Part shown: positions 21,224 through 23,044 of the stretch, piece by piece
Position numbering within the stretch: the stretch's first letter is position 1
Layout: each line of letters begins with the position of its first letter
NCBI GenBank assembly: GCA_019636175.1
Contig: JAHBYC010000025.1
Span: 1-40,597 of the forward strand
Length of the DNA: 40,597 bases
Direction of reading: 5' to 3'
Source: Caulobacter sp.
Lineage (GTDB): Bacteria; Pseudomonadota; Alphaproteobacteria; Caulobacterales; Caulobacteraceae
Translations under genes and position numbers: made by a program
The notes under the pieces: generated by a model
The model's input: the letters and a program-made list of their open reading frames with translations, nothing else
Database searches by the model: none
What the model was told of the DNA's origin: nothing

Positions 21224-21310
<87 letters not shown>

Positions 21311-21386: not shown

Positions 21387-21405
21387 ACTTTCCATTCTGG
21401 AAACT
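21387..21405. promoter_or_regulatory. Operator site 1 of the CPBP cassette
   Basis: ACTTTCCA-TTC-TGGAAACT, a 19-bp dyad with one mismatch to the perfect site 3. Lies upstream of the -35, centre about 53 bp before the centre of site 3. Confidence 0.7.
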
Positions 21406-21409
21406 CTTC

Positions 21410-21428
21410 ACTTGCCAATCTGGAAAGT
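21410..21428. promoter_or_regulatory. Operator site 2 of the CPBP cassette
   Basis: ACTTGCCA-ATC-TGGAAAGT, one mismatch to site 3. The mismatch creates the -35 hexamer TTGCCA (21412-21417), so a protein bound here would block RNA polymerase. Confidence 0.72.
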
Positions 21429-21441
21429 GACGGCCTATAAC
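21412..21441 (+). promoter_or_regulatory. Sigma-70 promoter of the CPBP cassette
   Basis: TTGCCA (21412-21417), 18 bp, TATAAC (21436-21441). The predicted start near 21448 lies inside operator site 3. GAAAGG (21459-21464) is the ribosome-binding site for the ATG at 21473. Confidence 0.65.
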
Positions 21442-21458
21442 TTTCCACATTGGAAAGT
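21440..21458. promoter_or_regulatory. Operator site 3 of the CPBP cassette
   Basis: ACTTTCCA-CAT-TGGAAAGT, a perfect 8+3+8 palindrome overlapping the end of the -10 and the predicted transcription start. Site centres are 23 and 30 bp apart (21396, 21419, 21449). Confidence 0.78.
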
Positions 21459-21472
21459 GAAAGGTCGCGTCA

Positions 21473-22237
21473 ATGCTCCCTCCCCTGATCCTTGCTCTGG
21501 TGATGCTGGTTCTCATCGTCTGGAACCGTTTCGAACTGCGCGACTACGCGGCGTTCAAGCGCGTAGCCGACAGCCGACAGCGACGGGGGTTCTACTGGCG
21601 CTGGACCCTGACCAGTTTTGTGATCCTGGGCCTGGGGGCGCTTCTGGTGCTGCTGGCGCTGGGCCGGCTGGACAGCCTGACCGTCTTTCCGGCCGAGTTT
21701 GCAGCCCTGCCGTTACCCAAGACGCCGGGCGGAGAGCGCGCCGCGATGAGCAACGCCACCCTGATCGGCATGGCGGTGGGCGCCGGCGTTGGACTGATCC
21801 TGTTCGCGGTGGTCTGGGTCTGGCGCCTGCGCAAGATGACCCAGCCGGTGATTGGCGACGTCGAGCCGATGATCCCGCGCAATCGCCGCGAGTTGCTGGC
21901 CGCCCTGCCCCTGGCGATCAACGCCGGCGTCAGTGAGGAGCTGTTCTTTCGCCTGATGCTGCCGCTGCTTATTACCCTGGTCACGGGCTCGGCCCTGCTT
22001 GGCCTTGGCCTTTCGGTGATCGTGTTTGGCCTGGTGCACTGGTACCAGGGGTGGAAGGGGGTGCTGGCGGTGACCATGGTGGGCGCCTTCCTGACCTGGC
22101 TTTACCTCACCTCCGGGTCGCTGCTGAAACCCATGGTGATCCACGCCCTGATCGACATCGTGGCCCTGGTCGTCCGCCCCGCCATCAGCCTCTGGATGGG
22201 TCGCGATCGGCCCGGATCGCCGGCGGCCGCCCTATGA
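21473..22237 (+). CDS. CPBP-family intramembrane metalloprotease
   Basis: 254-residue polytopic membrane protein of the CAAX-protease/bacteriocin-processing (Abi) family. All three active-site motifs are intact: EELFFR (Glu155, Glu156, Arg160), FGLVH (His189) and HALID (His224, Asp228). About six hydrophobic segments: 1-18, 47-64, 97-117, 160-188, 196-214, 221-240. Family members cleave membrane substrates or confer self-immunity to peptide bacteriocins; the substrate here is unknown. First gene of a three-gene unit with a 4-TM protein and a winged-helix regulator, read from the promoter at 21412-21441. ATG with GAAAGG 8 bp upstream. Confidence 0.87.
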   Translation: MLPPLILALVMLVLIVWNRFELRDYAAFKRVADSRQRRGFYWRWTLTSFVILGLGALLVLLALGRLDSLTVFPAEFAALPLPKTPGGERAAMSNATLIGMAVGAGVGLILFAVVWVWRLRKMTQPVIGDVEPMIPRNRRELLAALPLAINAGVSEELFFRLMLPLLITLVTGSALLGLGLSVIVFGLVHWYQGWKGVLAVTMVGAFLTWLYLTSGSLLKPMVIHALIDIVALVVRPAISLWMGRDRPGSPAAAL

Positions 22238-22280
22238 GCCGGGTCGAAACCAAAGGACGGAGCAGAAACGGAGACAGGAC

Positions 22281-22739
22281 ATGAATCAGGATCCCATCCG
22301 CACCCAGGAGGCCCGCGAGGCGCTGGAGGCCATGCAGGCGACCAGGAGCCAGTTGGCCAACCTCGGGTCCTGTCCGCCCTGGCGACACGCCGCATTCGGC
22401 GGCGTCATGGCGCTGCTGAACTTCTCGCTCTGCTTTGGCCAGCCGATCCAGGTCGCCCTGTTCGTCCTGTCGATGGCCGGGGTGGCGCTGATCGCCGCCT
22501 GGGACCGCCGGCGCTATGGCGTCTTCGTCAACGGCTACCGCCGCGGCCGGACCCGGATGTTCACCTTCGGCCTGCTGGCGGTCATGCTGCTTCTCCTGGC
22601 CCTGCAGGTCTGGCTGCGAGGGCGTGGCGTGTCGATCTGGATTGGCCTCTCGGTCTCGGCCGCGACCTTTGTCATCGCCACCGTCGCCAGCGTGTTCTGG
22701 AACAGGATCTTCCGGGCGGAGATGGAGCAGGGTGCGTGA
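22281..22739 (+). CDS. Four-helix membrane protein of the CPBP cassette, unknown function
   Basis: 152 residues. A polar N-terminal ~35 residues with helical heptads (EAREALEAMQATRSQLANL) is followed by four hydrophobic segments, at about 38-56, 58-74, 92-111 and 119-139. A basic loop RRRYGVFVNGYRRGRTR separates the two hairpins. AGGA precedes the ATG. Its stop overlaps the start of the regulator gene by 4 bp (GTGA), which implies coupled translation and a functional partnership: pairs of small membrane protein and small repressor, such as the Bacillus SdpI/SdpR pair, are known for sequestering the repressor at the membrane. No named family is recognised. Confidence 0.8.
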   Translation: MNQDPIRTQEAREALEAMQATRSQLANLGSCPPWRHAAFGGVMALLNFSLCFGQPIQVALFVLSMAGVALIAAWDRRRYGVFVNGYRRGRTRMFTFGLLAVMLLLLALQVWLRGRGVSIWIGLSVSAATFVIATVASVFWNRIFRAEMEQGA

Positions 22740-23044
22740 CGACGGGCTTTGATCCAGTGCTGCATCCGCCCGCCCGGCTGCAGATCGCAACGGTGCTGGC
22801 CAATGTCGACACGGTGGAGTTCTCGAAGCTGCGGCAGATCACCGGGGTCAGCGATTCGGTCCTGTCGAAGCATCTGTCGGCCCTGAGCGAGGTCGGCTAC
22901 ATCGCCCTGAAGAAGGCGGCGCTGGACGGGCGGCAACGCACCTGGGTAAGCTTCACCCGGCCCGGCCGCAAGGCCTTCGCCGCCCATGTTCAGGCCCTGA
23001 ACGAGCTGGTGCGCCACGCCGAACAGGCGATCAGCGGCCAATAG
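22736..23044 (+). CDS. Winged-helix transcriptional regulator (ArsR/MarR-like), last gene of the CPBP cassette
   Basis: 102 residues, essentially one winged helix-turn-helix: helices in PPARLQIATVLANVDTVEFSKLRQITGV, recognition helix SDSVLSKHLSALSEVGYI, beta-wing ALKKAALDGRQRTWVSFT, then a C-terminal helix for dimerisation. It has no extra ligand-binding domain and no ArsR-type metal cysteines. GTG start overlapping the upstream stop by 4 bp. It is the most likely binder of the three ACTTTCCA/TGGAAAGT sites, making the unit self-regulating; this is inferred from arrangement only. Confidence 0.87.
   Translation: MTTGFDPVLHPPARLQIATVLANVDTVEFSKLRQITGVSDSVLSKHLSALSEVGYIALKKAALDGRQRTWVSFTRPGRKAFAAHVQALNELVRHAEQAISGQ

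Follow-up and report, generated by a model that had tools for sequence, protein, structure and literature searches.

The subject of this report is an operon in the window (the whole 40,597-nucleotide stretch of Caulobacter sp. DNA that was analysed), in which three 19-bp palindromic repeats (dyads) precede genes for a CPBP protease, a four-transmembrane (4TM) protein and a winged-helix regulator. The features of the operon, with the operator and promoter elements as predicted from the sequence, are as follows.

21387..21405, no strand assigned: operator dyad site 1, one mismatch to ACTTTCCA-N3-TGGAAAGT, starting 23 bp ahead of site 2
21410..21428, no strand assigned: operator dyad site 2, one mismatch to ACTTTCCA-N3-TGGAAAGT
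21412..21417, plus strand: putative -35-like element TTGCCA within site 2
21436..21441, plus strand: -10-like element TATAAC, overlapping the first bases of site 3, with a spacer of 18
21440..21458, no strand assigned: operator dyad site 3, no mismatches, spanning the expected transcription start and ending 14 bp before the first start codon
21473..22237, plus strand: CPBP (Rce1-like) glutamic intramembrane protease (PF02517, 3.7e-17), an optional part of the module
22281..22739, plus strand: 4TM membrane protein, a core part, with a conserved cytoplasmic loop (about residues 75–92) and C-terminal tail
22736..23044, plus strand: winged-helix (HTH_34) regulator (PF13601, 3.2e-22) with a GTG start and the recognition helix VSDSVLSKHL

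The three open reading frames are those given in a preliminary description of this DNA, including the overlap of 4 bp between the 4TM and regulator genes. The three near-identical dyads of that description were confirmed by a scan in which they were the sole matches in the window at three or fewer mismatches and by 100 shuffles, which gave a mean of 0.07 matches and never three. Its placement of a -35 element in site 2 and of a -10 element at the edge of site 3 also holds as read from the letters; a strict sigma-70 scan called no promoter at TTGCCA/TATAAC, apparently because the -10 lacks the final T. Across the whole source genome, the dyad was noted at the operon, at one site with two mismatches and at one place with three.

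A search of species genomes with the regulator gave at least 425 relatives, the best 80 loci of which were analysed. Dyads at three or fewer mismatches numbered 213 in the promoter zones of these loci (84.5 kb) and 0 in their flanks (540.8 kb). Three or more sites were present at 57 of the 80 loci, two at 20, one at 2 and none at a single locus (L067), the promoter of which lies off the contig since the contig begins 393 bp ahead of the regulator gene. The operator first noted in the window is thus kept before orthologous modules, and its geometry is nearly fixed. The distance between the starts of sites 1 and 2 was 23 bp in 64 of the 66 loci with three sites (at four or fewer mismatches) while the distance between sites 2 and 3 was 25–31 bp. 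At position 5 of the dyad, G (ACTTG) was present in 89% of site 2 copies from 64 triple-site loci and T in 98% of site 1 and 100% of site 3 copies, a site-2-specific G being expected if the operator contains a -35 TTG. The evidence for the -10 is weaker than that for the -35 because the bases directly ahead of site 3 were TA in 56 but TAT in 29 of these 64 loci. The first start codon was mostly 26–34 bases past the first base of site 3, a distance partly set by construction, as an early in-frame start after the site was taken. We infer that the dyads are the operator of a repressor, binding of which would cover the -35, the -10, the transcription start and the ribosome site. One of the 80 loci (L077, titled Arthrobacter sp. 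TPD3018) matched the 8-kb locus of Sphingomonas aquatilis (L024) at 93–94% DNA identity, and the title of the record may be wrong.

The regulator belongs to HTH_34 (78.9 bits against a cut-off of 27) and also passed the cut-off of HTH_5 (ArsR) (23.7 against 22). It is a protein of 102 residues that comprises a bare wing and dimer helix and no extra domain, and its fold matched MarR/PadR-like 1ub9 (TM score 0.80), Rv3488 and ytfH. Only the Csa3 (1.5e-6), CARF and CasR models of PADLOC matched the regulator, through the helix-turn-helix region, and PHROGs gave no match for the regulator or the 4TM protein. The helix VSDSVLSKH was present in 30 of 30 regulators of dyad modules (alignment A2). Two more pairs of an HTH_34 regulator and a multi-pass membrane protein in the source genome (L005, C89; L006, C1) carried the helices TDGNLSAH or TQGNLSIH and no dyad; thus, recognition helix and dyad go together. 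A different imperfect palindrome, ACTTTACAATGCAAAGT, lies upstream of the pair at L005.

Confinement of the dyad to the module was evident from a scan of 37 module genomes drawn from the 80 loci, which held 91 dyads at two or fewer mismatches as opposed to 6 for a reversed control. Of the 91, 81 were at modules and 10 elsewhere, the latter near background, so that the regulator seems to control its own operon alone in a closed circuit, as far as dyads tell. A wider regulon was rejected from the same comparison (10 off-module dyads against 6 in the control). One dyad-like site with two mismatches in the source genome (G000:C11:26724-26742, L004) overlaps the start codon of a gene that we take to be greA-like, and the identical sequence was noted at G119:C8:57840 in one related genome. 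As a candidate second operator this site was set aside as probably due to chance, its right arm being the start of the coding sequence.

The composition of the module was examined in the 79 loci that could be parsed. An open reading frame of 137–173 residues was found immediately ahead of the regulator in all 79, its end lying between 41 bases ahead of and 4 bases past the point where the regulator match begins. A 4TM profile built from 62 of the 79 rows matched 78 of these reading frames (L069 being the exception); of the 17 rows left out of the profile, 16 matched. A survey of 119 family genomes found the regulator in 30; these include all 27 in which 4TM was detected, and each of those 27 also had dyads. 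Two genomes with the regulator only by search (G017 and G029) contained reading frames that matched the 4TM profile (2e-17 and 1.9e-6, respectively) together with dyads, and the regulator of another (G058) was a different paralogue (TQGNLSVH) without the dyad. The core unit is operator, 4TM gene and regulator. Thus, the tie of the regulator to the 4TM gene and the dyads, as proposed from the window, stood up in both samples, while the proposed trio did not stand as a fixed set, CPBP not being found beside 65 of the 80 modules; an obligate trio was rejected on the grounds that CPBP adjoins 15. Two 4TM genes were present at one locus (L073), and a similar extra reading frame was noted at another (L086). 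Ten frequent reading frames from clustering of neighbours were scanned, with matches to ThiC, carboxyl transferase, amidohydrolase and lycopene cyclase and no match for six; judged by position, no other recurrent accessory gene shared with CPBP a link to the operator that holds in different lineages. A convergent gene that presumably encodes an outer-membrane protein resembling MipA/OmpV (cluster of L009:4304-5209) lay after the module in 18 loci, which span 11 genus names or record titles.

The 4TM protein matched no Pfam family over cut-off, its homologues had no common Pfam family (at most 4 of 64 shared one weak match), and none of the three operon proteins scored over NCBIfam cut-offs. 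Neither it nor CPBP was matched by PADLOC. An AlphaFold2 model from a 64-sequence alignment (mean predicted local distance difference test score, 92.9) had helices at residues 5–27, 33–51, 54–79, 90–114 and 119–151, which are predicted to be an N-terminal helix and four membrane helices, the membrane-crossing helices being assigned by reading, and the fold had no PDB or BFVD match at E ≤0.001. With inside and outside assigned from the positive-inside rule, the outside turns in the model consist of a few residues each. Conservation was higher for the N-terminal helix, cytoplasmic loop and tail than for the membrane part (2.40 versus 1.84 bits, p 0.0002). Values were 2.92 bits for the loop at residues 75–92, which has a net charge of +4.5, and 2.51 bits for the tail at residues 140–149, as compared with 1.66–2.29 bits for the membrane helices. 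A protein of this predicted shape could hardly bind a periplasmic ligand through its loops and would more likely respond within the membrane and signal to a cytoplasmic partner. The conserved cytoplasmic loop and tail would fit the holding of a repressor and are no proof of it.

Membership of the window protease in CPBP was clear from its PF02517 score (62.8 bits against a cut-off of 22.4) and from the presence of EExxxR, FxxxH and H; the residues concerned (E155, E156, R160, F185, H189 and H224) were invariant in 14 module CPBPs. Where CPBP adjoined a module of the 80, it was the first gene in 7 cases and divergent across the same operator in 8; beyond the 80, the co-directional cases rise to eight with the window and the divergent ones to nine with a plasmid of Sphingomonas insulae. 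One of the 65 modules beside which it was not found (L067) has hardly any sequence upstream. When CPBP places were ranked in 38 module genomes, the top 12 (E ≤4.9e-34) were all at modules and six weaker copies (E up to 1e-12) were off-module, the module CPBPs forming one clade apart from these six homologues (support 98/99). On a quick tree of 77 regulator and 4TM pairs, co-directional CPBP took 5 changes and divergent CPBP 1; the protease has therefore been repeatedly gained, lost or moved. Two CPBP-4TM-regulator modules (L029 and L046) lie on one Sphingobium contig (G133:C46), separated by about 22 kb.

In one relative (G029:C5, L242:1154-2131), a TraB/PrgY/GumN gene (PF01963, 3.3e-46) takes the place of CPBP between three dyads and the 4TM gene, and the N-terminus of its product appears, by eye, to be a signal peptide. 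No further module of this type was found in 385 genomes of the class searched with the G029 regulator, which gave 5 matches including the window, the distances at the four others being too short for an extra gene. Published work bears on both families: PrgY is believed to break down a peptide pheromone extracellularly (PMC7117660), and links to bacteriocin immunity or to the processing of peptides have been reported for CPBP proteins (PMC9298176), an immunity role not being supported for SilX, the case studied in that second paper. The presence of two unrelated protease-like families in one slot, the second from one locus, may point to a peptide substrate. The preliminary description had offered two roles for the protease, namely release of the repressor and cleavage of an invading peptide, and action on a peptide appears the more natural of these because TraB/PrgY/GumN occupies the same slot in that relative.

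The module is bordered in the window by two further features.

21224..21310, plus strand: tRNA-Leu (CAG), left edge of the putatively acquired segment
23088..23732, plus strand: conserved flanking gene, which we take to be ribonuclease-D-like and which adjoins tRNA-Leu in relatives without the module there

Thirty loci of the genus were fetched from 41 genomes. The module looks horizontally acquired because 28 of these loci had no module between tRNA-Leu and the gene that follows, G022 and the window genome being the two with it; a module elsewhere was present in at least one empty-site genome (G077). On a tree, the window paired with one Caulobacter metagenome-assembled genome (MAG) inside a set of 37 rows (support 97) that is otherwise sphingomonad, except for two rows named only Alphaproteobacteria, and this nesting makes transfer from the sphingomonad side likely. 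Related arrangements were also noted at greater distances. Thus, two perfect dyads precede a 4TM gene (profile 7e-7) in G162, which is from another class of the phylum, a Planctomycetota MAG contains a 4TM-regulator pair with two dyads, and a Nocardioides MAG contains the regulator, two dyads and a membrane-type reading frame without a match to the 4TM profile. Among five actinobacterial plasmid loci, four of which matched the 4TM profile, one dyad was present in Arthrobacter, two in Streptomyces and none in three. The dyads of the Arthrobacter and Streptomyces loci (L189 and L190) cover the 4TM start codon, which suggests a leaderless mRNA with the operator inside the start of the gene. A module with three dyads was also found on an IMG/VR contig (L252) beside phage head, tail and adaptor genes, possibly in a prophage or a gene-transfer-agent cluster.

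These observations can be arranged as an autorepressed, horizontally acquired membrane-defence operon that would work in four steps. In the first, which is strongly supported by conservation, a winged-helix dimer would bind the three dyads and silence its own operon, the -35 falling in site 2 and the -10 edge, start and leader in site 3. In the second, which is supported, the switch would serve to supply the 4TM protein, together with any protease encoded, when needed, since the regulon is essentially the operon alone. In the third, the 4TM protein, which is almost devoid of periplasmic loops and has a basic, conserved loop and tail on the cytoplasmic side, would feel a membrane-active agent or a disturbance of the bilayer. 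It would then bind the repressor at the membrane and so lift repression for as long as 4TM is insufficient. In the fourth, the product of the optional first gene, CPBP or, in the one relative, TraB/PrgY/GumN, would destroy or process the peptide that caused the signal. The 4TM protein would be the output of such a circuit and possibly also its sensor and anti-repressor. All steps taken jointly, we hold this reading tentatively, at a little under even chances.

Several points weigh against it. No linked gene for a peptide or toxin was noted at the module, and the protease of the fourth step was unfound at most modules (65 of 80), with TraB/PrgY/GumN seen once. A basic cytoplasmic loop is also expected from the positive-inside rule, and fusion of 4TM to regulator was seen in 0 of 79 pairs, each 4TM reading frame having its own stop. 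A -10-like TAT was present in just 29 of the 64 triple-site loci. The 80 loci were picked by similarity of the regulator, with near-copies such as L024 and L077 among them. Finally, of the 92 family genomes that had no 4TM match, 20 also carried a dyad at two or fewer mismatches, dyads being clustered in G029 alone among these 20 and the reversed control giving 41 matches in the 119 genomes.

Proteins of the MarR/PadR type often sense ligands, and the fold matches of the regulator to 1ub9, Rv3488 and ytfH agree with an explanation in which the regulator itself senses a ligand or change and leaves the DNA, 4TM being only an effector (for immunity or membrane protection), as in repressor-effector pairs of that type. 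This explanation is possible, though we doubt it: the bare 102-residue protein has no domain beyond wing and dimer helix, 4TM is best conserved in its cytoplasmic parts, to which a partner might bind, and regulator and 4TM travel together.

Membrane-based relief of repression has a plausible analogue in SdpR/SdpI (and SdpC) of Bacillus subtilis, where an autorepressor and a multi-pass membrane protein likewise form one operon and a closed circuit; for the module, the putative autoregulation is supported by operators conserved over the promoter among the 80 loci. A strict form of that system, in which 4TM as immunity protein binds one toxin made elsewhere and draws the repressor to the membrane, would share its logic with SdpR/SdpI (PMC11995493, in part) and with the yizB-yitQ pair of B. 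subtilis (PMC6818787, in part). However, SdpI has six helices and a family of its own whereas 4TM has four and matches no family or fold. Thus, no SdpI match was found for the window 4TM at E ≤1 in Pfam, nor among the 25 families listed, of 41 in all, for the 64 aligned 4TM sequences (A1). The module also differs in its reversed order (4TM before regulator), three phased dyads, optional proteases and lack of any toxin gene seen nearby, and the strict form appears improbable. YizB/YitQ resembles the module by description, not sequence, as a predicted regulator with a membrane protein that lacks similarity to SdpI and confers resistance, in the case of YitQ to the YIT toxin (passages of PMC6818787); it differs in that the pair adjoins its toxin genes in Bacillus. 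Similarly, CdzI of Caulobacter crescentus is, by description, a small membrane immunity protein from a related host, but one with three predicted helices and linked toxin genes (PMC5380434, in part), and the word repressor is absent from the main text of that paper. CPBP/Abi proteins of bacteriocin loci share PF02517 with EExxxR and FxxxH as well as a proposed immunity or processing role (PMC9298176, in part); those examples are from Gram-positive loci, and the module CPBPs form a clade as set against off-module homologues only. The G029 protein is likened to TraB/PrgY/GumN (TIKI-like) proteins through PF01963, with predicted activity. Literature searches returned no paper on this gene pair or dyad, which is a weak negative as subscription literature is mostly outside their coverage.

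Two small adjacent or overlapping genes under tight autoregulation, patchily distributed and missing from the corresponding site in relatives, would also suit a toxin-antitoxin-like pair in which 4TM is a membrane toxin and the regulator both antitoxin and autorepressor. This is quite unlikely, the gain of proteases and of an extra 4TM copy being a better fit to dosage of a useful product. Least probable is the release model of the preliminary description, in which CPBP as a site-2-like protease cuts 4TM to free the regulator: a dedicated CPBP subfamily does occur at the same operator in two orientations, yet the 65 modules with no adjacent CPBP found keep the regulator and, except for L067, the operator, and in the 38 module genomes just six weaker CPBP copies lie away from modules, the 12 best places all being at them. 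CPBP cannot generally be needed for release because of the 65 modules and because it is divergent in 8 of 15.

To return to the autorepressed membrane-defence operon, it could belong to a new class of membrane surveillance circuits that are each contained in one operon and occur across phyla, with 4TM as an intramembrane sensor and as anti-repressor of a dedicated winged-helix repressor, a fixed three-dyad promoter and an interchangeable slot for peptide-destroying enzymes (CPBP or TraB/PrgY/GumN), the whole being toxin-free immunity cassettes that move between alphaproteobacteria. This wider claim is doubtful. If true, Gram-negative bacteria would gain a repressor-plus-membrane-protein alarm like those of Bacillus, with a regulon of one operon. 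The operator is clear enough to test, and natural variants are at hand, namely modules with no protease, with CPBP in two orientations, with TraB/PrgY/GumN or with a doubled 4TM gene. One subfamily of CPBP, a group of uncertain function in bacteria, would thereby be assigned to a defined genetic circuit in which its substrate can be sought.
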